In this document: positions 3,599-64,000 of the stretch, in pieces
Position numbering within the stretch: position 1 is the first letter of the stretch
Layout: the number at the start of each line of letters is the position of its first letter
Source of the DNA: Trissonchulus latispiculum
Lineage: Eukaryota; Nematoda; Enoplea; Enoplida; Ironidae
Length of the DNA stretch: 64,000 bases
Reading direction: 5' to 3'
Assembly: GCA_030248195.1 (NCBI GenBank)
Contig: JASAND010000509.1
Location: 1 to 64,000, forward strand
Notes under the pieces: generated by a model
What the model was told of the DNA's origin: nothing
What the model saw: only the letters and a program-made list of their open reading frames with translations
Database searches by the model: none
Translations under genes and position numbers: made by a program

Positions 3599-4912
3599 CA
3601 CTTTCTCAACTATAATGTGGTTATGTATTTGGGTAAAACGAGGTAATAAGGTACAAAACTGTTTCGCATTCCATCATATACGTACTTCACCAAGGTGCAA
3701 CTCTGAATCACTGCGACACTTTCAGTACCCTGCAAAATTTTATGATTTGTGCACAAAACTTGATGTGCTTATTTTGCTCAATCAAGTGCTTTTAAATTAT
3801 GCAATAAAATTGCAAAACATTTATATTTTGTAAAAAAGTGAAGTTTTTAGGGACTTTGAGTCTTGTAAGAAACGGGTATGAATATTAAAGGATTAAAAAT
3901 TTGGGGATAGACTATACGCCCACAAATACCCGTTCCCGTTCATAGCTTTCGCCAAACAATCGAAAACATGTTTAAATCTGAAAACAGAAGTCTTTAAATT
4001 CTTGAAATGACATAATAAATCTTCTTTTAATCTGAAGACGCTAAATAGAAAACAAGTATACAGAGAGCTGGCAAACGTTTTAATGCGAGAAACCATATTG
4101 TCATTTCGGAAAACACAGAAGTCGCCAAAAATAGGAATTTCATTTCTGACTTGACTGCCCCAACTCCCGTGTGCCTGAGCTATTACTATTTATTTCCATG
4201 GTGCCCTTTAATTTCCGAAAATGCTGTTCTTTTGTATTAGCCAAATATGGCAGGTTGCAAGTAGAACCGATAAACTATTCTTTATTGTGATGTTACGACG
4301 TTGCACTTTGCTCGTTCAAACGACATACACTACAACGACAACTTGCACTACAAATCGGAAAAGCGATTGGTACATAGTAGCTCAACTTAATGCTTATGAC
4401 ATTTCAAAAATTGGGACATCCTAAACTTAATCTAAAAAGTTAAAATAATTCCTAATAACATATTCATGTTTATGTTCATGAATTGGTATATATTTATCGT
4501 TTTAAACCTTTCCTCTAACTTGTATGTTTAGGTGTCACAAGAAATAGGACTTTTATTTAATACATTATTCAGAATAATTAGTTATCCTAGGTCAAGGGAC
4601 ACATTAAAAATTCAGAACTTTGTCCTTAGTTACCTCATTTTACCCTAAAAATTGTAAATCGTGGTTTTGTGCATGTACGTAGAATTTTTTCTTATTAAAG
4701 TTGTATGATTTGCATACTTTAACAAGGGATGAATACAACACTGACTACATATACAGAAAATAACTGAGGCCAATAGCCTGATTTATTTTGCTAAGCCATA
4801 ATTTTTGGTTTATCTCTGAACAGTTGTACTAAACGTACAGCTTTATTTAAAATAGTATATAGATTTTGCAGCAACAGAATACAGATGGGTCCTACATTTT
4901 GCATTTGATCTG
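3599..4912. other. Intergenic region between converging genes
   Basis: This stretch separates the 3' ends of the MED29-like gene (plus) and the cyclase-family gene (minus). It is AT-rich and holds an AATAAA at 3803. The short open frames have no family resemblance, no codon bias I can see, and no splice pattern joining them, so I call no gene. Confidence 0.5.
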
Positions 4913-7308
4913 TTAACAGTTAACAACGTTCACGCAGCTTCTGTGGCAGACATCCCCATTTCTGTGTCCATATGCTATCACTCTAGTAGGCGCTCCGCTG
5001 CCTTCTTCAATTAGCATTGGCAGGGCAATTATCGTGGCCCCGCGCGCTGGAAGTAGTTGAATATTTGCGAGATTTTCAAGACCCAAAATATTATGATTGT
5101 TTACAATCCGATGAGTCTCGAAGTGTGTGCTTTTACCAAAGTCTAAACTGGCAGTATCGATTCCAACTGCTTTAATGTTCCTGTTCTCAACGATCCAGCT
5201 GGCTGAGCTGGGATGTATTCCTAAAATGCACGAAAATTTGGCATGTTATATACCTGTTTCCGGAAGCTTGAAAAAAAATTGACCGGTCAAGGAATAAGTG
5301 TCAGTCTTTTCCAGATTCCCCTCCAATGCTAAAATTTCTAAAGCGACAGAACTGAAATTTGGTTTCCTTATGTGTTAGCTGGTCAGCCTAAGCTTTTTAT
5401 AAAGCCTTAGCTGCATTCCAAACCAGCATGCAAAATCGTGTGTAGTGGAGATAATTTTGAGGAATTTTATTTTAACACACTACTGCAGGTTTCTTAACTT
5501 TAGCAAATTAAGATAACACGCTAATGTTTTCTAGCTTTCAATGTTTTGTCTTTCACAATCTACAGATTCCAAACTTAATTGAAATTTGAATATTGCTACA
5601 TCTACGGACATTTTCCTTCTGTCCTATCTGAGCGCTCGACCATTCCCTCCGACTCCTTTCTGCGGCCTATTTCTTTTTTACCCAAGGCTAAACCAAACAG
5701 TTTTCAGCCAACTTCGTCACTGTTGTCAAGCGGGGGGCAGCTGTAGTCGGCAAGCGACTATAGTTGCCTTGGGGGTGACTAAAACAACCGCACGGCAGTC
5801 TTGGCTTAGGGACGTGTTTTCTGTCCATGGTCTTTGCTTCTCCGCCTCTTGCCCGTATTTTAGAAACGGTCTGCGGAGAGCAGCAATTTTCGGTTCTCAG
5901 GAAGAGCCACAATAATGCTGAGCCACTTACAAAAGAACTGAAATTTGGTATGGGTCTGTTTTCGACCCTGCTGAGTTTAAGTATCGCAACATTTTTCGAT
6001 TTCGCGAAATTCGATTTTTTTATTCTTTTTCATTCATGTGAAAGCGCTTCCGTTAAATTTGATAAATAGTAGATACTTATGCTTAACATGAATTATGGGA
6101 TGCAACGTAAGATCATCGACGCCATGCTACTGACTTTGAAAATTGAATTTTAAAGTTTAACTCATTCTTTAGTATCATTTTGCCTGAGCATATTTGTTAT
6201 GTTCCGTATGAGTGAAAGATTTTCGGACTCACCTGGAAAACTAAGCTTTGAAACATTTTTGTCATTAGTTCCCAAATAATCCATGGTATTATTCCACTTT
6301 AAATGCCATCCAGTCCGAACTACAATGATACAGTTTGAGAGAGATCCATGTTCCATCTCCCAGTCGATTAAATCTTTGACCATCATTTGATAATCCCGAT
6401 TTCTGATTGCTTTATTTGTTATATCAACGACACACGCTTCGCCAATCAAATTGTTTAAAGGAATCTAAATAAAATATCTTTTTTCATCTGTTTTGGCAGT
6501 CTTTTTTTATGTCAAATACTAAAAGCAGTTTGATTGCGTTCTATAAAATTACAAATCCAATAAACGTATAAGAAGCTTACTTGATGAGTTTGCTGCTTCC
6601 CTCTAGCAAAATGCGCAGGAGCATCCAAGTGCGTTCCTCCATGTTCAGCTGACTCAAATTCGTTCCCTTCGTACCAATAATTTTTCTCAGTCAACCCTAA
6701 ATGAAGAAAGTTCGGGTGTCCTAAGCTTGGGCTCTTTGTTGCTCAACTCCTCTTAACCTGGTTGTATTTCAATTATATTGATTATTGAATGATAACTTTA
6801 ATTTATCGTCGCCAAATGTTGAATTTTTCGCCGCCGTTCCCGTCGGCAAAAACGCAACCTGAAAATGTTCATATCTATTTTGTTGATCTAAAACTTTGCT
6901 AAAATCCTGGAGGGGTCCGCTCACTCCTCAAAATTCAATTTTTTTGTGCAACATTTAACAGAAACCTTCCTCTTTTCGGCGGACTCACAGCTTCCTTAGG
7001 CCAATAAATGAGTATGCACAGCTTTCTTTTAAACTTAGAGTTATTTAGTAGCTGTTGAAGGGAATTCCAAAATGTAATTTTAATTAGATAGTGTGTGGAC
7101 AACTACTAAACTAGACAAACTTGCCTCGAAATATTTTGGTAAATCGGAATGCTTTTGCGGTTGGCCAGTAAATAGTATCTCTATTAAAAGGATGCGTAAG
7201 ATCGATCAGTTCACAGTCATCTAGTTTAAAACAGACCACTTTTGACAAAGAAATAGTTAACAAAATTAAACTTATTTTTGTTAATTTCACAAGAAATTGT
7301 CCGTTCAT
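4913..7308 (-). CDS. Secreted cyclase / kynurenine formamidase-family hydrolase, four exons
   Basis: Reading from the minus strand, exons 7308-7125, 6696-6581, 6464-6233 and 5220-4913 join in phase to 279 residues with stop TAA at 4913-4915. Residues 1-27 form a signal peptide with a leucine/isoleucine-rich core. The mature part starts with LIDLTHPF near residue 35 and has the metal-binding motif HGGTHLDAPAHF at about 80-91, the hallmark of the Cyclase family (Pfam PF04199: bacterial-type kynurenine formamidase, isatin hydrolase and relatives). The third exon starts IPLNNLIGEACVVDI and the last has VGIDTASLDFG and GATIIALPMLI, both typical positions. The family hydrolyses amide or lactam bonds using Mn or Zn; the actual substrate is unknown. 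The first intron appears to use a GC donor (CGAG|GCAAGT), because only that junction keeps phase. The last exon has a four-cysteine tail, fitting an extracellular protein. Confidence 0.88.
5925..6040 (+). repeat. Single arm of the hairpin element family, in a cyclase-gene intron
   Basis: The stretch with GGTATGGGTCTGTTTTCGACC and TTTTTCGATTTCGCGAAATTCG matches the left arm of the palindromic element at 17210-17806 (there about 17265-17350). Only one arm is seen here, so this is a truncated copy. It lies in the last intron of the minus-strand cyclase-family gene. Confidence 0.6.
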
Positions 7309-42659: not shown

Positions 42660-42975
42660 AAGGGGTAAGGGTAGGGGGGGAGAGGGGGGGGGGAGATTTG
42701 GGGTTTGAGAGGGGGGAAAAAAAGGTGGGGGGAGGAGGAATAAAAAAAAAAAAAGGAGGAGGGATAGTTAGTATGTGTTGTTTGGTTTGGGGGTGGGTTG
42801 TGTGGGGGTGGGGGGGGGTTGGTTGGGTGGGGGGGGGTGGGGTGTGTGGGGTTGGGGGGGGGGGGGGGGTGGGGGGTGGGTGTGTGTTGGTGGTGGGGGG
42901 GGGGGGGGGGGGGGGGGGTGGGGGGGGGGTGGGGGGGGGTTTTTTGGGGGGGTTGGGTGGGGGTGGGGCTATTTT
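42660..42975 (+). repeat. Extreme G-rich low-complexity block
   Basis: Over 300 bases that are almost only G and T on the plus strand, with G runs of up to about 20 and units GGGGGT, GGTTGG and GTGTGG. Glycine/valine-rich frames here are not genes. Many G-quadruplexes could form, and such a tract is also a common site of sequencing or assembly error. Confidence 0.9.
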
Positions 42976-43004
42976 TGCCGGTTTAGGGCCTGTTCCGGTA
43001 GATC

Positions 43005-50040: not shown

Positions 50041-50498
50041 TCGTGAGTAATAATAAGTAAGGAATATTCCGATGTTTTATTGTTATAGTTAAACTCATTA
50101 AATTAATGAAATTGTTATTAATTAATATCATTGAGAAGAAATATAGTAAATATTAAAACATAAAGCCTGCTTCGAAAACTCCGAGAATTACTGATTCATG
50201 AAAAGTTTATTGCACATGAGCATATGGAGGTCTGGAGTGTGCGGACCCACCTAAGAAGTAAGAATTAGATGATTGGTCTTTTCTTGCTGCGGAACCTGTT
50301 AAATTTTTGGAAGCGACGTTTCGCCCATCTTTACCTGTGGGCGCCTTCAGGCTGGTAGCCCTTAAGATGGCAGTTGGGATAATGCTCGGTCGGGGATTTG
50401 ATCCAGGGTGTGTCACATTACCTGTGTCACATTACCTGTGTCACATTACCACTATACTACCCAGGGGACAATTTTACTTACTTGGAACTTATACTCAT

Positions 50499-51879
50499 TG
50501 TTGTATGTTCAGAGACGACTGTACTCAACGATGTTTACTGCAAGACTGAATATGAATCTGAGTACATTTCAAACTACCTAACTACACATCAGCATATAGT
50601 AACGATTCCTAGCTTAGAACATAACATGCAATCACTAGCATGCGATCATATCACTATACAACATTTCCCTTTTACACAAAAAGAGTAGAGACCCCAAGGT
50701 TTCACATAGTTTTGGTTGGTTTACCAAAGTTTACAAAATAACAAATTTATCTTCATTATCTTCACTGACGTCTGCTTCGGCTGTGATGGTGTGGATGTTT
50801 TTCCCACTCCGCTTTCTTCCCGACCGGCACACGTTAGCGAAATGACCCTTTCTCCCACACGAAAAACAGGTTTGGCCGTTAGCTCTGCAGTGCTTGCTCC
50901 GCGATGCATGATTGCCGGATCCACAGGCGCTACACTTTTGACAATCTTCTGAGGACTCAGATTCTTCACTTGGCGCAGACTTACGTGGAGGAGACTCATG
51001 ACGGTCATGGAATCCATGGCGTCGTGTGAACGCTTACTGTTGGCGGATGTGGCTCACGGTGGCGGACTTCTCCTGAGTTTCGTTTGTTCTTTCATTTGTC
51101 CTGAGCTAGCTCGTTTGCTTCTGAGATTTCTGCTTTCTCGATCTGCGTAGCTATTTGAGCGGCCCTTGCAACGGTTAGATTTGACTCCATGAGCAATCTT
51201 TCTGGAATTCTTGGTTGATTTATGCCTTCAACGATCTGGTCTCGGAGCATGTCATCTTGGGTAACCAGCGCACGTAGATCGCTGTAGAATAATGTGAAAG
51301 ACTCATCAGGGTTCAGTCTTCTTTGCCGGAACGTGTGTCGAGCAGCGACAGGATTCTGCTTCGAAGAAAACTGGGCTTCTAGCTGTCGTTGCACTTCTTC
51401 ATAAGTCACATCGTTGGCTTCAAACTGCAGAGTGTGGTAAATGCGCTGTGGTACCTAAATAGTGAATCAGCAAGGCAATCTTTCGCTTGTCAGGCACTTC
51501 GTCTAGTCGCGGTGTCCCGATGCGGTCAGAAACATGTGGAAGGACCTTTTCCACTGTCGCCATGGGATTGGCGGGTCTCCAGGAGTTTCCAAAAAGGAAG
51601 GTGGTTGCCGCAGGGAACTCATAGTGATGCCGTAGGATCAGACCAGCTCGTCGCCAATGTTGTATATATCAGAGACGACTGTACTCAACGTTGTATACTG
51701 CAAGACTGAATATGAATCTGAGTACATTTCAAACTACCTAACTACACATCAGCATATATTCGGTTGTACATGACATTCGGTGGTACATGACTTTCTTCTT
51801 CTTTCTCATTCATAGTAACGATTCCTAGCTTAGAACATAACATGGAATCACTAGCATGCGATCATATCACTATACAACA
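50499..51879 (-). mobile_element. Gag-only LTR retroelement
   Basis: Direct repeats 50499-50663 and 51658-51879 start TGTTGTAT and end TATACAACA; the second has an extra stretch of about 55 bases. Flanks CTCAT and CTTAT form a 5-bp duplication with one change. On the minus strand the 5' LTR is followed by TTGGCGACGAGCTGG, a common Ty3-type primer site, and the 3' LTR is preceded by AAAAGGGAAA. The inside encodes only Gag with zinc knuckles; protease, reverse transcriptase and integrase are missing. Confidence 0.85.
50740..51640 (-). pseudogene. Gag-like protein with zinc knuckles, broken
   Basis: On the minus strand a start at about 51622 gives SSLRQPPSFLETPGDPP and WRQWKRSFHMF, a stop follows, and coding resumes in another frame with DKRKIALLIHYLG and then VTYEEVQRQLEAQFSS, RQRRLNPDESFTLFYSDLRALV (51409-51092). 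Downstream, another frame has two zinc-knuckle-like units, KCSACGSGNHASRSKHC and CFSCGRKGHFANVC. The layout is that of Gag from Ty3-type elements. At least one stop and two shifts make it a pseudogene. Near its end SEDNKFVIL runs into the LTR side without a protease. Confidence 0.7.
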
Positions 51880-51959
51880 CTTATTGTATTCCCCCAGTTA
51901 CAATTGCACTTAGTGTGAACACTGCTACAATGTACTTGTATTGTGTACCCTGTTATGGA

Positions 51960-52065
51960 GTGGTTTATGGTTTATTATGGTTTATACAGACCAGCGGACT
52001 TGCCATGCGATTCCCGCTATCGCATGCACTGTGCAACCTCTACATGGAGAATTTCGAACCATTTA
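51960..52065 (+). pseudogene. Penelope-like reverse transcriptase motif, isolated
   Basis: TSGLAMRFPLSHALCNLYME follows the Penelope-type pattern T-x-G-x-A-M-G-S-P-L-S-x-x-x-A-x-L-Y-M-E, followed by NFE. GSPLS has changed to RFPLS, so a key part of the active region is damaged. It is cut off directly by inverted N-terminal sequence of the same element type. The mirrored copy of this junction is at about 54060-54170. Confidence 0.65.
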
Positions 52066-52490
52066 CCATAGCCTCAGCAGCACTTTCGCTGGAGCCAGTG
52101 CGAAGTTTAGTCCTTTTCTGAGGACCTCAATTTCCTCTGTAAGGAGTGGCGTATCGCTTCTGTTGATGACGTTGCCATCACTGACTTTAGACCGCTGAGA
52201 GTGGCAGGGAATCAACTTTTCGAGTTTCTTGACCTGAATTTTCTTAATTCGCTTTATTACATTTTCGTGGCTACTCTCACAAGCCTTTCTTATTCTAAAA
52301 GGCGGTCTTCAGGTGTGACGTGTCTTGCCAGTTCTCGGAACATCTTGACGATGCTATCTTCTAGCCGGCTTTTCTGAGCTCGGTGATAACCTATTCTTTC
52401 CCTCAGAAGGGCTATGCTAGCTCTATCGGCTATTTGTTCTACTCTCCGGCTACTGAATGGGATTCTATCCTTGAGGCGAAGAGGTATGAT
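52060..52490 (-). pseudogene. Penelope-like N-terminal coding, minus strand
   Basis: On the minus strand: LRLKDRIPFSSRRVEQIADRAS (read as two adjacent short runs), LLRERIGYHRAQKSRLEDSI, FRELARHVTPEDRL, then, after stops, NVINRSDTPLLTEEIEVLRK and GLNFALAPAKVLLRLW. The E-x-x-V-L-x-K-G-L-N-F-A stretch is the conserved start of Penelope-like reverse transcriptases. A second copy of the last part is on the plus strand at 53930-54110. Confidence 0.62.
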
Positions 52491-52779
52491 GTTGAAATCT
52501 CGACAGCGGCAGAGAAAGGTTAGGTGGTGATATTAAAAACTGATGGATGCGGGCGAACCTGTCTGGGAACTATCAGGTCAAAATCATCAACCCACTCCAG
52601 GATAACATCGCCTCGAAGGTTTGGAGAACTACAGACCTGATTCAGAAAGTTAAGGATGTGAACGTGTCTAGGAACTATCATCTGGCAACTTCGATGTAGA
52701 GAGCCTGTTCACAAGCGTACCACCAGCACCAGCCCAGGACATATTGAAGACAAAACTGGAGAGCGACATCAGCCTCAGC

Positions 52780-53800
52780 ATCTAAGAAACCTGGCCTGTG
52801 GTTGCGCTATGTAGACGATATCCTCAGTGTGTGTAAACATGGTCTGGAAGTACTGGGAAATTTCAAAGATCATCTAAACAGGCAAGATCTAGCAACCAAG
52901 CTAACAACTGAACCAAAATAACAACATGTTGGCGTTCTTGGATGTTGAAATAACAAGACTAATGGAGGTATCCAGACATCAGTGTATAGGAAAAAGACAC
53001 ACAAACAGATATATTACACTACGAATCAAACCATCCGTATTCCGTACTATGTGAAAAGTGGAATAATAAGATGCATCCACAATAGAGCTACAGCCGTATG
53101 CCAAGAACGGCAGTTGAAAAGAAAAAAGAGATCATCCTGAGGAAAACATTCCAACAAAGCGGCTATCCTGCTAAAATAATAATGGAAGCAATGTCTGCTC
53201 GAAGTACCGGACCAAGCTGGAGGAGAAAGCAGAGAAACTAACGGCTGTCCCTTACACAGATAGAGACACGGACAAACTAAAGAGAATATGCAGCTCCTGT
53301 GGTGTAAAACTAGTGTTAAGTAGTCGGGACACACTGAGATCACCATTATCCAAGCAGAGACCAAACGGATTCCAGGTCAAAAATTGTGTGTACGATGCCT
53401 TCCAATGATTGTGACAAAGTCACATTGGCCAGACAAGCAGATCTCTGAGTGGAAGACTGAAGAACACAAGAAAGCATGTGAAAAAGGTGAAGTATACAAA
53501 AGTGGAATAGCAGAACATTGCTGGCAAATGACTACGGACCAAACTGGGCAGAAGTTAAAGTTTTGGCTAAGGAACAAAACCTAAGAAAGACAGAACTTAA
53601 AGTGACGATTGAAATGAAATGGGGTGAACACGGGCTTAAAGTCAACCAAGCTGTGATGTGGCATCTGGCAATCAGAAATTGGAATCTGAAGACGGCGACA
53701 TCAAAGGAAAGTTTAGTACACAGCCTTAGTGTAATAACTGGGTACACAATACTAGTACATTGTAACAATGATCACACTAAGTGCAATTAAAACTGGGGGA
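52780..53800 (+). pseudogene. Penelope-like reverse transcriptase end and GIY-YIG endonuclease, broken
   Basis: In several frames: LRYVDDILSVCKHGLEVLGN (the YVDD active-site motif) near 52805, KEKRDHPEENIP, KLEEKAEKLTAVPYTDRDTD, then FQVKNCVYDAF, HIGQTSRSLSGRLK and TEEHKKACEKGEVYKSGIAE followed by HCW. That last series is the GIY-YIG-type nuclease domain that Penelope-like elements carry at their C terminus. Frames change at least four times and stops are frequent, so no protein can be made. Confidence 0.75.
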
Positions 53801-53829
53801 ATACAATAAATATAAGGTTCCAAGAAGTC

Positions 53830-54115
53830 AGGGTAGGAAAGGCGTGTGAGAGTAGCCATGAAAAGGCGTCAAGCGGATAAAGGAAAGGCTGGTCAAGAAA
53901 CTTTGATGATGATGAACAAAATGTTGATCCCCTGCCACTCTCAACGGACTAAAGTCAGTGATAGCAACGTCATCAACAGAAGCGATAGGTCACTCCTGAC
54001 AGACGAAATTGAGGTCCTCAAAAAAGGACTAAACTTCGCACTGGCTCTAGCGAAAGTGCTGCTGAGGCTATGGCAAACGGTTCGAAATTCTTATGTAGAG
54101 GTTACGCAGTGCAGG
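53830..54115 (+). pseudogene. Penelope-like N-terminal coding, plus strand copy
   Basis: LIPCHSQRTKVSDSNVINRS, DRSLLTDEIEVLKKGLNFAL and AKVLLRLW repeat, in opposite orientation, what is seen at 52210-52065 on the minus strand. It lies behind the endonuclease piece, so it represents the start of a following or inverted copy. Confidence 0.65.
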
Positions 54116-54659
54116 CGATAGCGGGGATCCCATGACAAGTCCGCTAGTCTGTAGAAACCATAACAAAGCATAAACCATATTCCATAGTAAAAAAGCGGGG
54201 AACATCGGCTTACCGTCAACCAAGCATTGAGATAAGTGACACTCTGGCTATCTAAACTTGGATTCTAACAGAGGCGGCAACATTAAAGGAAAGTATAATA
54301 CACAGCCTTAGTGTAATAACTGGGTACACAATACTAGTACATTGTAACAATGATCACACTAAGTGCAATTGAAACTGGGGGAATACAATACGTATAACTT
54401 CCAAGGAAGTAAAATTGTCTCCTGGGTAGTTTAGTGCTAATGTTGCACAGGCGTGGCGCGGACAACCCTGGATCAAATCCCCGACCGCCCCTTATCCCAA
54501 CTGCCATCTTAAGGGCTACCAGCGCCCATAGGTAAAGATGGGCGAAACGTCGCAACCAATTTAACAGCTCCCGTGGCAGGTCTGGCAATTGTTGTGTTGT
54601 TAAATTTAATTTGTAACATGGCTCAGTGTAATCGAACCATGCTACAACCGCCTGCATAC

Positions 54660-54716
54660 AATTGAATTCCACGCTGTAGCGTGCAGTACAATTGTACTGT
54701 ACAATTGTACTGCACG
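54660..54716. repeat. GTACAATTGTAC short palindromes
   Basis: Two overlapping copies of GTACAATTGTAC near 54689-54713. Short self-complementary sequence with no further context. Confidence 0.6.
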
Positions 54717-54937
54717 GTAAGCCTTCGATGCTCTCCTGTCGGAGTATGCAGCGAGGCTTGACAGCTAGCAGAACTGACTGCAATGATAAAGAATTTCTCC
54801 CCCTTATATACTTTCTGCCGAAAGAAAATACGCAAATTAGGTTGAATAGTATATAAACGACTGAAATTTGAAGCCAAATGTTAGTCTTTAAAGACATGAC
54901 ATATAGAAGACGAAATGTCTTCTATTTTTTTGAGCCA

Positions 54938-55092
54938 TATTACAAGCCAGTTGTAGCACTGCTTGCTGTGCTCGCAGAAATTTGTTAGCTCACTTGCAGG
55001 CGAAGCCCTCGTGAAGGGCCCTTCACTGGGAGCTTCGCCTGCTAGTGTGCATACAAATCTCTGAGAGCACTGCTGGCAGTGCTACAACTTAC
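54938..55092. repeat. Hairpin-forming inverted repeat
   Basis: The left part (GTAGCACTGCTTGCTGTGCTC, AGGCGAAGC) is mirrored on the right (GCTTCGCCT, GAGAGCACTGCTGGCAGTGC). The arms are about 65 bases with a GGGCCC centre at about 55017. No coding is present. Confidence 0.6.
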
Positions 55093-56032: not shown

Positions 56033-56796
56033 ATTTCAAATTGCCATTTTGCGAAAAACCTTTTTCAGAAGAACTAAAAAATTTGGAAATTCTGCTACAG
56101 TTACAAATTCAATGTGTGAGGTATATACAAATTTAAACTGAGACGTGACCTTGCACCTTGGCACTATACCAGAACCTCGTTACATAAACGGTTGAACAGT
56201 CTAATAGTTGCCAGTCGAAAGGTAAAATTCGTTGCATAATACTAACAGTGTTCAACTACTGTTAGACTGTTTGTTGACACTGTTTGAACGGTGTCCAGTG
56301 CTCTAACTCAGGTGTTGCATGTAGCGAACATAAACTAAAAATTTTAATTATTTACGCCCATAATTGGGCGACATCAATCAACTACGTATTAATTCTTTTC
56401 TTCTGTTCTGTAACAAAAGGGCGTTTTGTTTCACGGCCCAATTCACCCATATCCGGGTTAAATTACTAAAGTTCTCCTTTTCAAAATTATTCAAGTGTTT
56501 CAACCTAGTTTTTGGAACCTACGCCTTTTTTACATTTTTAAACTCCCTTTTCAACAATCTTAGTCTGAAAACGGCCATCTTGAGAATCGCACGATGTTTC
56601 AGTCTTCGCTCTAACTATGCTACAATTGCATTTCTTCGTATCTACCCTCACTTTGTGAGGCATTCTTTATTATCTTTTATACTTGCATATATACCTTATA
56701 ATATCCTCTAAATTCGAAGTCGTGATTGCACTAAATAAATATAATTATTCATTTTATCACAACTGACTAATTTTCCAGTTGCCCACTCGCTGCATA
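56033..56796. other. Possible 5' LTR and leader of the Ty3/gypsy element
   Basis: Directly upstream of the primer site at 56797 should stand the 5' LTR, ending with CA at 56793-56794 (CTCGCTGCA). I could not find a matching copy after integrase within this window, so the LTR start is not fixed. The 115-residue frame at 56364-56711 (plus) has no known domain. Confidence 0.4.
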
Positions 56797-56814
56797 TGGT
56801 GGCAGCCGTGGGAT
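56797..56814 (+). promoter_or_regulatory. Probable reverse-transcription primer binding site
   Basis: TGGTGGCAGCCGTGGGAT starts with TGG, the complement of a tRNA CCA end, and stands right before the gag start. Which tRNA primes is not known. Confidence 0.55.
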
Positions 56815-58356
56815 GCACGTTCACCGCTGTATGAGTGAATCTGCACCTCCGACTACACGGAGACAAGCTGCCAACCAAGCGGCTGAAGGAGATTCTAGTA
56901 GTCGACGCCGATCCCGACCCCGTTCGAAGACTCCCCATCGAAGCTCGTCCTTGGAGAATTTGCAACGACACCTGTCTAACCAACAACAGCAAATTGAACA
57001 GGATCGACTTCAACTGCGAAGCTTTAGCCAAGCTCTCACAAAGTTTGAGACTCAACTATCAGGAATAAAGGCTGGTTTTACTGATCACCTTGAAGGTGTG
57101 TCCCGAGACTTACACCAACTTCAAACTAGTTTTCAAACCTACGATCCTAATTTTCTCTCAGCTCTTCAGCGAGAGCCCTTAATCAGCTGCAGCACCTCCA
57201 GGCTTCAATTGGACATATTCAGCATCAGAACCTACAACCACTGCCAATCATGCCAGGACCAACCGGAATTTCCCTCCCTAAGGACGCGGTAACGCTGTTT
57301 TCAGGCAAGCCGGGGGAGAAAATCAAGGAATGGTTTGTTTCCTTCGAATTCATGGCCGATACCAAGGGCTATGACGATGACCAGAAGGCCAAAATGGTAC
57401 CAGTGTTTCTCCAGGAACAAGCCCGGAAGAAATATCTCGACCTTGATCCTGCCATCAAACTTGACTATGGTCAACTCAAAGCCCAACTTCTCACCCTCTT
57501 GGAAGATAAAGAGGCAGAAATGATGGCGGGGTTTGGACTGGCTGCCCATCAACAGCGACCTAATGAGTCCACCGCAGACTTTGCGTGGCAATTGCAAAAA
57601 CTAGCCGATGATGGTTTCCCGGCGCTTGATGCTGCCGGAAAGGAAAGTTTTCTGCATAAATACTTTTTGTTAAATTTGAATCCTTATTATCAGCGAACCC
57701 TCCAGGATGCTGTCAGAAAAGCGCAGCAGCTTGAGGCTCTTGAAGCTATCAGAACGCAGACACTTCCGGTAGGCCTCGCTGCAGTCTCCTCTATGCCTGT
57801 AAATGCCGTTGCTGCTGCTCCTATGCCCTCAGTCCCGGCTTCTCCACCAGGTGGTTATTCAAGTAATGCTGCACAGAATGCTCAGACCCAGCAACTGCAG
57901 CAGTCAATGGAGCAGCTACAGGAACAAGTGAAAGCGCTGGGAAGACAACTGGCGCTCAGTCAGAATCAAACAAGATATGAGCCTCCTCCACGCTATGGTG
58001 GTAGCAGTAGGACCCCAAATAATGGGGATAGGGCTCCAAGGAGACAGTTTACTACTGATAGTCGTCTGGTTTGTAATTTTTGTGGTAGACCAGGACATTA
58101 CGCGTCCGCCTGTCGACAGCGGCAGGCTAGGTACTCGGCTCCCTCAAGGACTTATGCGCCTGCGCAGCTGCGAAATCCCATGTTATCGGGAGGAAGTCGT
58201 CCCCAGAGTGGTCCATCGTCGTTTGGAAGTGGTGGCAACAGACCGCAGATGTCGCCGCTCATAAACCAGCAAGAATCAAGCAGAAGTGAAACTGTTACTG
58301 ATCCTTTGGACAGCCGGAACTATGAACTTCAACAAGACTTGGCAAGAGAGCGGTAA
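56813..58356 (+). pseudogene. Gag of the Ty3/gypsy element, one frameshift
   Basis: ATG at 56813 opens a basic, serine/arginine-rich N terminus (RRRSRPRSKTPHRSSSLENL) and a glutamine-rich coiled coil. Near 57178 the frame changes; in the new frame capsid-like sequence follows (LFSGKPGEKIKEWFVSFEFM, PVFLQEQARKKYLDL, LNPYYQRTLQDAVRKAQQLE), then an alanine/proline linker, a second glutamine-rich helix and one CCHC zinc knuckle, CNFCGRPGHYASAC, at about 58072-58113. This is a standard Gag layout: assembly of particles and binding of element RNA in the cytoplasm. TAA at 58354-58356 ends the frame, but the same frame continues into the next segment. Whether the shift is mutation or programmed cannot be told; its position within the matrix/capsid border makes mutation more likely. 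Confidence 0.88.
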
Positions 58357-59541
58357 ACGAATCAGTTGTTGATGGAACAAAATCAACGACTGTCTGCTCA
58401 ACTCAGTTAACAACAATCTGCGGCACGCAGTGTGTCCACTGTCACTAGTGGTAAACCGTCCAATTGGGTCATGAGAGTTAGTACAACAAACCGACGGCGT
58501 CCGTAGAATTACAATCGGAATAATGTCAATCGTGCCAGCACACCAATTCAACGCTCCAGCTGGACATTTCACTGGACTACACTCCTGTTCTTGGTATTCT
58601 CTTCATTGATTCTTGGGATTAACGCCGATAACGCTCTGGTTGCCCCAGAACATCCCATGCTCTGCATATCGGACGAAGGGAAGTCATTCTGGCGGTTGCC
58701 TGAATCTTTGCAATGCGGCATGACCTATACTGAATCTGACGCGCAACCATTTGCAACCGATGTCCTGCTCTATAAGCGCAATTACGTTCAATATAAGTCT
58801 GTTGCTTATAAGTGCGCCATGGTGAAGCAAACAAAAGAAGTTTTCACCTATTTCTTTGCTACCTACCATTTGGACGAAGACAAGAAAACCAACGTTCGCG
58901 TTGACGCCGATGAATGCTATAGTATGAAGGAATGGCATAAGTGTGCCCAAGGACCACTGAAAAAGGTTGGTGAACTATATGAAATGGAACTGAAACTGGA
59001 GTGGTGGTATTCAGGTGGGGGTATTGATTGTTGCAAATGGCGTACGTTCGAAGTCACTAATTGTTACCTGCACAAGGCTGTAGTGTATAAGCGCCATCAC
59101 TCAGATCAGATGGAAAGCTCAGCCGGTGATGTAAGTCATTGTGACTATTCCACTGGTAGCTGTCAGCTCAAAGATGGTACCCACTTGTTGTGGGATGTTA
59201 ATAAAGATGAAAAGTGCGAATACCTCCCTTGGAAACCGATGCCTGGACTTCAGTGGGATACTAATTGGCTATCCGAAGATGACAACTTGGCTCTTACCTT
59301 CACTTACGGATGGATGTCCAAGGACTGCGACGGGAAGAAAATCCGAATCAGCGATCAGGGGATCCCTTTTCGCATCTTGTCGCAACGTTTGTACTGGCTA
59401 CAACGCGGACATCACTCCCGTTCTAAACGGCAAACGGCCCCTTCCACGAACACGGACAGTGAGGGAGCTCCTCAGGAAGTGTTAAATGAAGCTACTCTAC
59501 AGAAAGTAATGGATCGAAACAATGCTGGTGAAGTTCATTGA
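58357..59541 (+). CDS. Envelope-like cysteine-rich glycoprotein segment, in the gag frame
   Basis: After two further stops (58408 TAA, 58504 TAG) the gag frame stays open to TGA 59539-59541. A hydrophobic stretch, WTTLLFLVFSSLILGI (about 58576-58623), could be a signal peptide or membrane anchor. About 310 residues follow with 12 cysteines (for example PMLCIS, LQCGMTY, IDCCKWRTFEV, HCDYSTGSC, KCEYLPW) and a furin-type RSKR at 59419-59430, after which only about 36 residues remain. No fusion peptide or C-terminal anchor is seen. These features resemble the surface part of an envelope glycoprotein, but I do not recognise the family; viral glycoproteins captured by retroelements are a possible source. 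It has no good ATG start: the open part begins after the stop at 58504. Position between gag and protease is unusual, since envelope genes normally follow integrase. Confidence 0.6.
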
Positions 59542-59621
59542 GTGAAGAGTTCATTGATTGAGTTCATTCATTCAGTGAAACTGCGGTTTCCAGCAGTGGT
59601 GATGATGGTGAAGGCCCTGGA

Positions 59622-60475
59622 TTGGTTTCCTATTTGGCCATTGGGTCAATGGATGATGTCCCAGCAGCAGCCCTCTCATATATCGAGGTCCCTGTTAACG
59701 GTCGACCAATCCGATCCTTGCTCGACACAGGGAGTCATATTACGTTGATTTGGCGAGATCAGTTGAAGTTATTACCGCTTTCAGTAATGGATACTTTTCG
59801 ACCCGAGACGAAATCAGCCGCGTCTGTCACAGGAGAAAGTGTACCACTGTTGGGCTCAGTTACATTAGATTTACAACTCGGGGACGAAACCTAATTACAA
59901 AAGATGTGTCCACAGTGATGATAACACAACCTCTAATACTAGGACTTGACTTTTTGGACAAGTACGACGACGTTCATCTCTCCTTCCGTAAGAAACGGTT
60001 GCAAATTGGTAAACACCAACTTACGCTTACCCGAGACATCAAAGTAGCACGATTGGTAGCCATAAATAATGTGGTGGTACCACCTCGTTGCGAAATGGTG
60101 ATTCCTTGTCGGTATGACAGGGCAGGCTTAATGGGAGATATAATCTTTACTCCCCATGAAGCCAACATGATCAAACTGGGACTGCAGGCGGCTCGTGCCG
60201 TCTTACCGCCGGTGGCCGATGGATCCTTGCTTCCTGTTAAGTTATTGAATCCATCGGAAAAGGAAGTGACGGTCTATGCCAACATGGTTATGGGATGTGT
60301 GGAATCCGCCGGAAACATCAAGTGTGTTGGCCAGATTAACGCTATCAGTGTTTCTGGGCCAGTCACAAGTAATGAAATTCCGTACCCAGACATTGCCACT
60401 GCAGTCGAGAGGGCATTGCCAAAGAAGGCAGACCTGTCGCTAACAGATGGTAACGCCAGAGAGGCGAAACAATAG
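59622..60475 (+). pseudogene. Aspartic protease region of the Ty3/gypsy element
   Basis: The first frame has VPVNGRPIRSLLDTGSHITL, where LLDTGS is the catalytic aspartate motif of retroviral-type proteases. The frame breaks near 59890. In the next frame PLILGLDFLDKYDDVHLSF is the usual flap-to-end block (I-L-G-x-D-F-L). A linker of about 170 residues follows to the TAG at 60473-60475. The reverse transcriptase continues in that same frame, so this stop is probably a mutation. The enzyme would cut the Gag-Pol polyprotein. Confidence 0.85.
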
Positions 60476-61540
60476 ACCCTCAAGCAGTTGGATCTGTCCA
60501 AATCTAAGCTGACTGACACTCAAAAATTCCATCTTCGGCGATTGTTATTACAGTATGCCGATCGTTTTGTTGCTCCTGATGGAGAATTAGGCCGCACTGA
60601 CCTAATTAAGCACACCATTAATACGGGTGATGCCATGCCTTTAAAGCAGCATCCCTATCGGATCCCTGTCGCTCAACGAGCCGTTGTGAAGGAGCATATC
60701 GACAAAATGCTGGAATCAGGAGTCATCCGACCTAGCAAGAGTCCCTGGGCCAGTCTCATCGTACTGGTCACTAAAAAGGATGGAACCCTGCGCTTCTGCG
60801 TGGATTATCGGAAACTAAATGCTCTAACGAAGAAGGATGTGTTCCCATTGAAGCGAATAGATGAGATCTTGGATGCACTGGGTAACGCTCATTACTTCAG
60901 TACGTTGGATATGGCTAGTGGGTACTGGCAAATCCAGATGGCAGAAGAAGACGCCGAGAAAACGGCGTTTTCGAGTCTCTGGGGATTGCACGAATTCACT
61001 GTAATGCCTTTTGGCCTGTGCAATGCCCGTGCCACGTTCCAGCGTCTTGTTTGACGTAGTACTCTCAGGATTGCAATGGCAGTCTTGTTTGTCTTACATT
61101 GACGATATCGTCATCTTCTCCGCAACCTTTGAACAGCATTTAGTAGATCTTGCGTCCAGTTTATATCGACTTCGAGAAGCCAACTTAAAGTTGAAGCTAT
61201 CCAAGTGTACGCTGTGCACTGACAAAGTCCTTTACCTTGGACATTTCATTTCTGGGAAAGGCCTGGAGCCAGATCCAGTAAAAATAACAGCAGTCAAGGA
61301 TTGCCCTCGCCCTCAAACCGTATCCGAGTTACGAAGTTATTTGGGCATGTGCTCCTACTATAGGAGATTTGTTCCTGGATTTGCATCTTTGGTTCACCCA
61401 TTAAATCAGCTACTGAAGAAAAATGCTAAGTTCTACTGGTCGAAACAATGCGAAGACGCTTTCACTGCGTTGCAAGATTGCTTGGTAAAAAGCCCTGTTT
61501 TGGCGTTCCCTGACTTTCAGAAACCATTCAGTCACTGTAG
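60476..61540 (+). pseudogene. Reverse transcriptase of the Ty3/gypsy element, one frameshift
   Basis: The first part has HPYRIPVAQRAVVKEHIDKM, SPWASLIVLVTKKDGTLRFC, DYRKLNALTKKDVFPLKRID and YFSTLDMASGYWQIQM, the usual motifs 1 to 3, then MPFGLCNARATFQRL. Near 61040 the frame changes by one base and goes on with LSYIDDIVIFS (active site YIDD, where YVDD is usual) and LGHFISGKGLEPDPVKITAV, LRSYLGMCSYYRRFVPGFA (thumb). The protein would copy element RNA into DNA in the particle. A single lost or gained base in the palm makes this copy inactive. Confidence 0.93.
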
Positions 61541-63424
61541 ATGCCAGCGGAGTCGGCATAGGCGCTGTACTATCTGAGCTCCACGAGGATGGAGAGCACC
61601 CAATTGCCTACGCTTCCCGAGCACTTAATGATGCAGAACGCAACTCCACTGTCACCGAGCAGGAATGTCTAGCAGCAGTGTATGGTGTGAAGACTTTCCG
61701 CCATTACTTGGTGGGTCACCACTTCACCTTAGTCACTGATCATGCTGCTCTTCGCTGGCTGCTAACCACCAAGACACCTTCCGGGCGAATAGCTAGATGG
61801 GCAATTTGGCTCCAAGAATATGACTATGATGTCGTGCATCGACCGGGAAAGTCCAATATTGTAGCTGATGCCTTGTCACGACTTAACTTCAATGCTGTAA
61901 GAGAGCAACAGCCTTCTCTTAAGGTACAGGCAATCTTTGATAACCATCTGGATGATGAGTGGGACGATTCTAAATTTTATGAATCGGATGCTGCTACAAT
62001 GGCGAAGGAACAAGCGAGAGATCCAGACTTTGCTCTCATCTATGCATATTGCCAATCTGGTGAGTTACCAGATGATCCAAACAAGGCAGCCGAAATTCTA
62101 TTCTCCTCGCCTCGTTACGATATTTCCAACGGTGTGCTAATCCATCTTTGGCCACACGTGAAACCACCTAAAACAGTTTACGAACAAATAGCTGTGCCAA
62201 GCAATGTTCGGAATGACCTGCTTAAATCCTATCATGAAGAACCGTTGGGCGCTCATCTAGGAGCGAAGCGAATGTACCATCATCTTCTGGAGAAATATTA
62301 CTGGCCCACCATGCGGAAGGATGTGTACCATTATTGTCAGAGCTGCCATGCGTGTCAAGCTCGCAAAAATCCTCCACGAGCTAATCGAGCTCCACTCCAG
62401 TCTATTTCCGTTTCGGAGCCTTTTGAATGCGTCAGGATTGACATACTCGGTCCCTTTCCTCTCTCACTGTCGGGAATGAAATACATTGTTGTTTTCATGG
62501 ATTACTTCACCAAATATCCAGAATGTGCCGCCATTCCCGATCAAACTGCACAGACGGTGGCAAAATGCTTTGTTGCCGACATCCTCTGTCGCCATGGAGC
62601 ACCTAGGCGACTTCTGTCAGATCGAGGGTCCAACTTCATGTCGAAGTTGCTAGCTGATGTGCTGGACCTCTGTGGGACCTCTAAAGTATCCACAACGCCT
62701 TATCATCCACAGTGCGATGGATTGGTCGAGAGGTTCAAACGTACTCTTTTGGGTATGCTGACATCATACGTCAACACTGGGAATACGGACTGGGATGTCT
62801 ATTTACCCCTAGTCCTGTTTGCCTATCGAAGTACGTTACAGGAAAGTACAGGGATCAGTCCTTTCCGGATGATTTATGGCCGTTCTCCGGCTCTTCCTCA
62901 GCGTGAGTACATCGATGAACCGAGTTTCGCCTTGGAACTCGCGTTCGAACTGCAAACTGTCTGGAGTATTGCCAAGGACAATCTTGAACTGGCCCAGCAG
63001 CGACAAGCCCGATGTTACAATCGAAAACTGAACTATCCCAGTTTCCAGGAGGGCGATCTTGTCATGTGGTATGTTCCCAAAGATGGCGTTGAAGTGGACA
63101 GGACCCTATGTAATTACTCAAATCCGAGGCACTAGTGCCACCATCAAACCTTTGTACGACCGACGATCGACGTCCTCGAAGGTAGTGCATACTAATAATT
63201 TAAAGCTGTACGATTTACCATATCTCCAACCGTTATCGGTGTCCTATCAGGAGGAAACGATAGAAGAGTTGGTCTCTGATGACAATTACGGCGAAATCGA
63301 CCAATCTGATCAAAATCCCGTTAATAACAATAATTGGTGTGGTCCGGTTAAAACTGATACCTTAGTGGCTGCACGCCCTCGTCGCATTCGACGTCGCCCT
63401 GACTACTTTCAAGCTTCCTTTTAA
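61530..63424 (+). pseudogene. RNase H and integrase of the Ty3/gypsy element
   Basis: After a shift near 61530 RNase H runs TVDASGVGIGAVL, AYASRALNDAERNSTVTEQE, YLVGHHFTLVTDHAALRWLL. Integrase follows without a break: zinc-binding H-H-C-C (HEEPLGAHLGAKRMYHH, CQSCHACQ), the catalytic DDE core (VRIDILGPF, LLSDRGSNFMS, HPQCDGLVERFKRTLLGML), and after one more shift near 63100 a GPY/F-like tail, KWTGPYVITQIRGTSATIKPL in two short pieces. It ends with an acidic/Asn-rich tail and a basic PRRIRRRPD motif, stop at 63422-63424. Integrase would insert the DNA copy into the genome. Confidence 0.93.
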
Positions 63425-63763: not shown

Positions 63764-64000
63764 ATGCCCCGTATTACAGTACGGTGTTCTGACTGTGGAA
63801 ATAAACATTCCGTATCAGTAACGGCTGACGTTACTTGTTTCAGTGGAGAGGGTGACCTATGCCAAAACTGTGGAACCTCATTACAATATCAATACGAACG
63901 TTCCTCCGGCATGGAGACTCCTGTCCTTCAATCAACAATTACCTATTTTCCGGTTTACCCACCTTCGTTTGTTACCCCGGGGCCCCGTTTTCCGTTGGGA
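63764..64000 (+). CDS. Partial zinc-ribbon-like reading frame at the window edge
   Basis: From ATG 63764 a frame stays open for 79 codons to the end of the window. It starts PRITVRCSDCGNKHSVSV, followed after about 30 residues by GDLCQNCGTSLQYQYERS and a proline/tyrosine/phenylalanine-rich part. Two C-x-x-C pairs spaced like this suggest a zinc ribbon. It may be an extra gene of the Ty3/gypsy element before a 3' LTR outside the window, or the first exon of another gene. No family is recognised. Confidence 0.45.
   Translation, partial: MPRITVRCSDCGNKHSVSVTADVTCFSGEGDLCQNCGTSLQYQYERSSGMETPVLQSTITYFPVYPPSFVTPGPRFPLG

Follow-up and report, generated by a model that had tools for sequence, protein, structure and literature searches.

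The order usually given for retroviruses, and for retrotransposons that carry env, is gag-pol-env. One review reports an exception in Burro (GYPSM1), a set of giant gypsy-like elements of planarians. In these, env sits between gag and pol, in frame with both, within the first open reading frame (ORF1), and this was called the first such case, env being a separate ORF in other gypsy-like elements (PMC6431247). Here we describe a Ty3-type family of the nematode Trissonchulus latispiculum that likewise has an in-frame env between gag and pol, one copy of which lies on the plus strand of a 64,000-nucleotide stretch (positions 1 to 64,000 of contig JASAND010000509.1, assembly GCA_030248195.1; below, the window), from 56797 to the window end. 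It is probable that the first ORF of this family encodes a single membrane-threading Gag-Env-protease (PR)-reverse transcriptase (RT)-RNase H-integrase (IN) polyprotein of around 2600 amino acids (aa), of which the window copy would be a decayed member. A reading of the window made from its letters only (the sequence-only reading) had taken the layout as unknown from any described Ty3 lineage, which the Burro report overturns. What is new is the class III Env in this slot, the compact form and the presence of two Env classes in one slot.

Burro elements are around 30 kb long with an ORF1 of 4873-5140 aa, carry extra BIR, ankyrin, BCL2-like and dUTPase domains and come from one host family; integrated proviruses are supposed for them, their env region matches mononegavirus fusion glycoproteins, and their Env is likened to gypsy Env, of the baculovirus/retrovirus/paramyxovirus type (PMC6431247). 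Set against this published description, and not by sequence comparison, the class III family here differs in its size of 11.5-12 kb, its 2512-2716-aa frame, its long terminal repeats (LTRs) of about 500 bp and its class III Env, whereas frames with a second, class I-like Env reach 3814 aa. The dUTPase found in Burro had no match between PR and RT in window positions 59562-60472 or in positions 4431-6101 of locus L067, a representative of the class I-like kind.

Insect gypsy elements that carry an Env, some of them with type III fusion glycoproteins, have GAG, POL and ENV in tandem (PMC13172572). The family resembles errantiviruses and other Ty3/gypsy elements with an env (Metaviridae) in its Ty3-group RT and integrase, its LTRs, its 4-bp target repeat and its possession of an Env, and departs from errantiviruses in that their env is a separate ORF downstream of pol, while here Env is in frame between Gag and Pol and a different ORF lies past pol. 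Anakin elements are Pao elements carrying a chuvirus glycoprotein, and in earlier Pao/BEL cases an envelope-like protein lies downstream of the polyprotein; the accessible part of the same report holds no statement that the Anakin glycoprotein lies between GAG and PR (PMC7642597). An LTR element with a chuvirus-type glycoprotein is common to Anakin and the present family, although the polymerase of Anakin is of Pao kind and the RT here is nearest to Ty3. The flavivirus polyprotein puts a cytosolic capsid, an internal signal peptide, a lumenal glycoprotein and cytosolic enzymes on one chain, and the likeness is one of logic only, no homology being claimed, since here we deal with a retroelement having its own protease. 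In foamy viruses a cytosolic Env leader works with Gag in assembly and Env is a separate downstream gene; here Gag itself would act as the Env leader. Cer1 of C. elegans belongs to the Ty3 group. An extra protein is numbered within its one polyprotein; this CERV, taken for Env in an earlier report, lies at the 3' end and serves RNA export in the nucleus (PMC10309623), unlike a glycoprotein between Gag and PR. The env-like ORFs of bdelloid elements are ORF3s (PMC5408684), and the accessible parts of PMC8556966, PMC6238403 and PMC2577118 hold nothing on env position. In the literature searched, nothing was met that describes a class III Env placed between Gag and PR, or two Env classes in that one place; outside this literature stands the wide survey of Chary & Hayashi 2025 (eLife 108449), which may bear on the matter.

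Gene order and open frames across the genome

The genome searched comprises 733.8 Mb in 21,732 contigs. With the Env segment of the window as query the best 124 of 700 candidates were scored, giving at least 124 matches at 45-100% identity (a few copies gave two), and with the window RT the best 150 of 4476; the counts that follow hold among the matches listed. RT identities range over 55-98%. An env match lies upstream of RT on the same strand for 72 of the 150 RT matches, and the env-RT spacing is 2.0-2.3 kb in 67 of 73 pairs, the outliers being the window copy, short at 938 bp, and five other pairs at 2.7-6.6 kb. In at least 35 copies env and RT sit in frames of equal length (1638-2716 aa), and in at least 24 copies, on separate contigs, that length is 2512-2716 aa; since the lengths are equal, env and RT are taken to share one frame in these copies. 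The order in open copies is Gag, signal, Env, transmembrane (TM) stretch, PR, RT, RNase H, IN, and intact copies thus keep the Gag-Env-PR order on which the sequence-only reading had made its interpretation depend. Nine of 30 loci cut around env are open throughout their 3.9 kb, which start in Gag and reach the PR region, and this together with the number of genome matches argues that the Env segment is not there by chance.

Of the 78 RT matches with no env match, 20 were fetched and scanned with an Env profile, and 17 of them have Env upstream of RT, including lineages with an Env just 16-21% identical to that of the open copy L010. A CCHC motif precedes Env in 16 of these 17. In an 18th locus (L050) the Env end is in place, L055 is cut off within the Env tail and in L058 Env lies on the opposite strand. 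No copy in which Gag directly adjoins PR was seen among those examined, these 20 included. RVT_1 matches of 740 nt were set aside as long interspersed nuclear elements after an endonuclease was seen in L069, the sole one checked.

LTR pairs were tried in three copies, one of which (C12725) runs off its contig end. In C15787 the LTRs are 498 bp and identical at 498 of 498 positions (100%), and in C4910 they are 523 bp and identical at 520 of 523 (99.4%); both pairs have TG..CA termini and flanking 4-bp repeats (CATA and TAAC respectively), and the elements measure 11.5 and 12 kb. The insertion of both copies is thus recent. Among solved structures the RT is closest to that of Ty3 (1e-37), as is the integrase (6.2e-50). 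Past pol, in the place where env usually sits, is a second ORF (L060:520-1701, L065:3-920 and L062/L066) whose product has CxxC pairs and another Cys-rich patch as well as a Pro-rich linker; the pieces scanned matched neither a Pfam family above cut-off nor PHROGs. Troyka elements have CG..CG termini, a 3-bp target-site duplication and no Env (PMC12440569), and the TG..CA termini and 4-bp repeat seen here do not fit them. Overall the gene order is confirmed at the level of DNA as real, repeated, recently mobile and under selection.

Envelopes of two kinds in one slot

A complete Env of the class III family is around 600 aa long and, by hydropathy only, has a hydrophobic signal-like start, an ectodomain of some 500-560 residues, one TM stretch and a tail. 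All 14 class III pieces match the fusion-glycoprotein family PF24664 (Monjiviricetes_fusion) at E <= 8.1e-6, with 12 over the cut-off and L034 and L068 below it at 24.5 and 24.7 bits against 27. The match falls in the half of Env that the window copy has lost. Below cut-off there are also matches to Borna virus G and herpesvirus gB, and, in two pieces each, to a rhabdovirus fusion domain and a NUP210 Ig-like domain. A comparison with viral glycoproteins, as proposed from the window alone, therefore succeeds with the full Env, which from its profile match is a predicted class III fusogen. Fourteen cysteines are aligned in 13 of 13 Envs that are 16-96% identical to that of L010. A furin-type site stands at the same position in all nine aligned Envs of the A groups, as do three preserved sequon columns, and such a site is absent from all four aligned Envs of groups B-E. 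Searches of PDB sequences with the window Env half or with the Env alignment gave nothing significant, and when viral contigs were scanned with the alignment, 37 pattern matches came up, none of them a relative.

That Env is under purifying selection is shown by three pairs of open copies. Their ratio of non-synonymous to silent change (dN/dS) lies at 0.03-0.05 for the first half of Env and at 0.02-0.06 for its fusion half, whereas the Gag end reaches 0.16-0.26; two of the three pairs have silent sites near saturation (dS about 0.8-1.5). Among the other seven pairs, silent change is saturated across almost all parts in five, and the last two are so similar that their ratios, mostly 0.12-0.62 but 1.28 in one tail, tell little.

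Locus L067 (G000:C18275:24000-30100) and loci L070-L074 have an unrelated, class I-looking Env ahead of PR and RT, and their RTs form a second clade. L067 has, in order, a Gag of around 830 aa, a signal, some 600 aa that include an RxKR site and, behind it, a hydrophobic stretch rich in Gly and Ala, then a TM stretch and PR. A genome search with this Env, in which the best 69 of 1037 candidates were scored, gives a total of at least 70 matches, 17 of which, from 16 copies, lie in frames of more than 3300 aa (3814 aa at most); in seven of these 16 copies the RT match falls in a frame of the same length. No Pfam family was over cut-off for this type of Env and a PDB sequence search gave nothing significant, and its class I label is a reading of the layout.

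In a tree of 24 RTs, nine of the class I-like kind split from the fifteen others with full support, the Env itself having been looked at in seven of the nine, and an Env of class III kind seen in eleven of the fifteen. The tree was built without an outside reference, and 14 of its rows span just some 100-115 residues, and so it is silent on whether the slot was inherited or was invented twice. The L067-type clade is possibly the closer of the two to Burro. More tentatively, and with slightly less than even confidence, the slot between Gag and protease may be seen as a stable, swappable envelope cassette reaching well beyond Burro, filled by a class III Env in one deep Ty3-like group and by an unrelated class I-type Env in another RT clade. 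Both would then make membrane-threading Gag-Env-Pol chains with Gag as the cytosolic leader of Env, and the arrangement would be a general second way to express an envelope besides the separate downstream env.

Proposed expression as one chain

In the proposed pathway Gag would be translated in the cytosol, and the internal signal peptide would then thread the class III Env ectodomain into the endoplasmic reticulum until the TM anchor halts transfer, so that PR, RT and IN would be made back on the cytosolic side. Signal peptidase would free the N-terminus of Env, leaving Gag membrane-bound via the old signal peptide. In the A groups Env would also be cleaved by furin, and release of the enzymes would fall to the protease that the element encodes. 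Capsid, envelope and enzymes would thus arise together at one membrane, much as in a flavivirus polyprotein, and the product would be an enveloped and possibly infectious particle. Translation as one chain, the topology, every cleavage, particle formation and infectivity are all matters we infer. In all 15 class III loci the net charge past the TM stretch is positive, and in 14 of the 15 it is positive ahead of the signal too, a pattern that fits a cytosolic Gag, a lumenal Env and enzymes that are cytosolic again. The sequence-only reading had offered either a Gag-membrane fusion or readthrough, and of these the single Gag-Env frame stands, readthrough being unneeded in open copies.

Several observations weigh against such a membrane-threading polyprotein. 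L041 has a net charge of -5 ahead of the signal, and four class I-like loci have zero or negative net charge past the TM stretch. N-glycosylation sequons are no denser in the ectodomain than in the Gag end: with 19 loci pooled (four of them class I-like, and with the Gag slice of L070 miscut) there are 0.88 per 100 aa in the former and 1.31 in the latter, and when only the 15 class III loci are counted the figures are 82 in 8129 and 48 in 3225. This tells against a straightforward glycosylation reading. One chain would also lock Gag, Env and Pol at 1:1:1. A single-sequence AlphaFold model of the window Env half has a pLDDT of 34 and no usable fold, so that a fold as a non-surface protein, the other refuting outcome named by the sequence-only reading, did not come out either; the Gag capsid has no Pfam or PDB match, and a PR motif was recovered by pattern in just 7 of the 17 loci found with the Env profile. 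The near-saturated silent sites in the dN/dS pairs count here too, as do some weak splice-like sites common to close copies, of a kind that the splice scan may miss.

Those splice-like sites bear on an unlikely alternative, in which Env lies inside the ORF but is handled at the level of RNA, being spliced out to give Gag-Pol or expressed from an alternative transcript as Env(-Pol) alone; with an intact frame both would be readable. The env of retroviruses comes from a spliced mRNA (PMC10309623), and donor- and acceptor-like matches are common to the close copies L030/L033 and L044/L045, with acceptors in L040 and L051 and a full 9/9 donor in L051. However a scan of 15 loci around Env found no donor or acceptor common across lineages, and L040, although very like L051, is without a donor at >=7/9. 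Removal of Env by splicing moreover needs no open Gag-Env-PR frame, and yet this frame is preserved in diverged lineages.

Less probable again is that the long frames are real and Env no longer serves entry, acting instead as an intracellular membrane anchor or sorting domain for Gag-Pol. The four aligned lineages of groups B-E are without furin sites, but class III fusogens do not require furin cleavage, and the profile match to the fusion region, the 14 aligned cysteines and the very low dN/dS of the ectodomain speak against such a role. Seen alone, the window copy with its stops, deletion and frameshift could also pass for a single gag that took up a viral gene in one event, or for an assembly artefact. 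This is hardly credible and is refuted by the number of genome matches, the long open frames on separate contigs, the constant spacing and the spread of RT identities; absence of the segment from most copies, which the sequence-only reading gave as the sign of a one-off, was not seen among the copies examined. The single membrane-threading polyprotein is thus the reading that we prefer.

The window copy and what the family may mean

The element in the window is of Ty3 type, dead and in part deleted. A primer-binding-site-like stretch (TGGTGGCAGCCGTGGGAT, 56797..56814, plus strand as are all features of the element below) lies 2 bases past the presumed 5' LTR end (56794), and a near-identical stretch lies 2 bases past the LTR end in the open copy C15787. 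The N-terminal part of Gag (MSESAPP..., coiled-coil-like by eye; 56831..57292) falls within a frame (56771-57292) other than that of the remaining gag, and the copy is judged dead because of this. The following Gag frame of 401 aa (57151..58356) has a region that is capsid-like by eye and a CCHC zinc knuckle (58069-58119), the zf-CCHC match being weak (E 0.0021, below the Pfam cut-off). The Env segment lies in a frame of 344 aa (58507-59541) that is the same reading frame as gag, as had been claimed from the letters; three stops (58354, 58408 and 58504) separate the two in this copy.

The hydrophobic leader, the many cysteines, the furin-type site and the protease behind the segment, all of which the sequence-only reading had named, are present. 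Env starts with an internal signal-peptide-like hydrophobic stretch (58576..58626), seen by hydropathy in open copies too, and goes on into the N-terminal half of the cysteine-rich ectodomain (58627..59538), which takes in the first subunit and about 36 aa past the furin-type site RSKR (59419..59430). A deletion scar follows (59534..59583): where L010, an open copy, has about 1337 bp, some 49 bp stand here, and the fusion subunit, the TM anchor and the cytoplasmic tail are gone. The segment, envelope-like as first supposed, is therefore only the N-terminal half of an envelope, with the second half and membrane anchor absent, and it has no Pfam match over cut-off.

Behind the scar the order PR-RT-RNase H-IN is that of Ty3/gypsy elements (Metaviridae). 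The aspartic protease (59562..59894; Peptidase_A2B, E 1.3e-5, over cut-off) is in a frame different from that of gag and Env, the reverse transcriptase (60476..61577; RVT_1, 1.1e-12 and 8.5e-10) is spread over two overlapping frames (60476-61054 and 61005-61577), and RNase H and integrase (H2C2 and rve by Pfam) occupy 61489..63135. The C-terminal end of Pol (63032..63424) resembles the frame end of C15787 and has no Pfam match, and the start of the second ORF past pol (63764..64000; Cys-rich, zinc-ribbon-like by eye) has counterparts in C15787 and C4910. Overall the decay consists of stops in the gag frame, shifts in other frames and the loss of some 1.3 kb past the furin-type site. No LTR pair of this copy was found inside the window, and the contig stops 1.1 kb past the window end.

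Other features were seen in passing. Upstream of the element, window positions 50351-55089 hold a number of repeat pairs, both direct and inverted, that are 58-173 nt long, 84-98% alike and at most about 4 kb apart, and a strongly G-rich tandem array on the plus strand (42788-42968; period 25-49, GC skew 0.92 at 42750-42999) is G-quadruplex-like by eye. Elsewhere in the genome is a broken nuclear copy of COX1, mitochondrial in kind (L098, G000:C17523:28493-29676), whose codons by eye fit the invertebrate mitochondrial code better than that of flatworms; it has AAA and ATA at positions which we take to be invariant Lys and Met.

If the proposed polyprotein is true, a compact, diverse and recently mobile family with a class III Env in the slot, together with a second clade of the same genome that has another Env class there, would make the oddity of Burro a case of a general strategy of expression, comparable to the membrane-threading polyproteins of RNA viruses. 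The family would then offer a test system for how the ratio of Gag, Env and Pol and their cleavage may be controlled without frameshift, readthrough or splicing.

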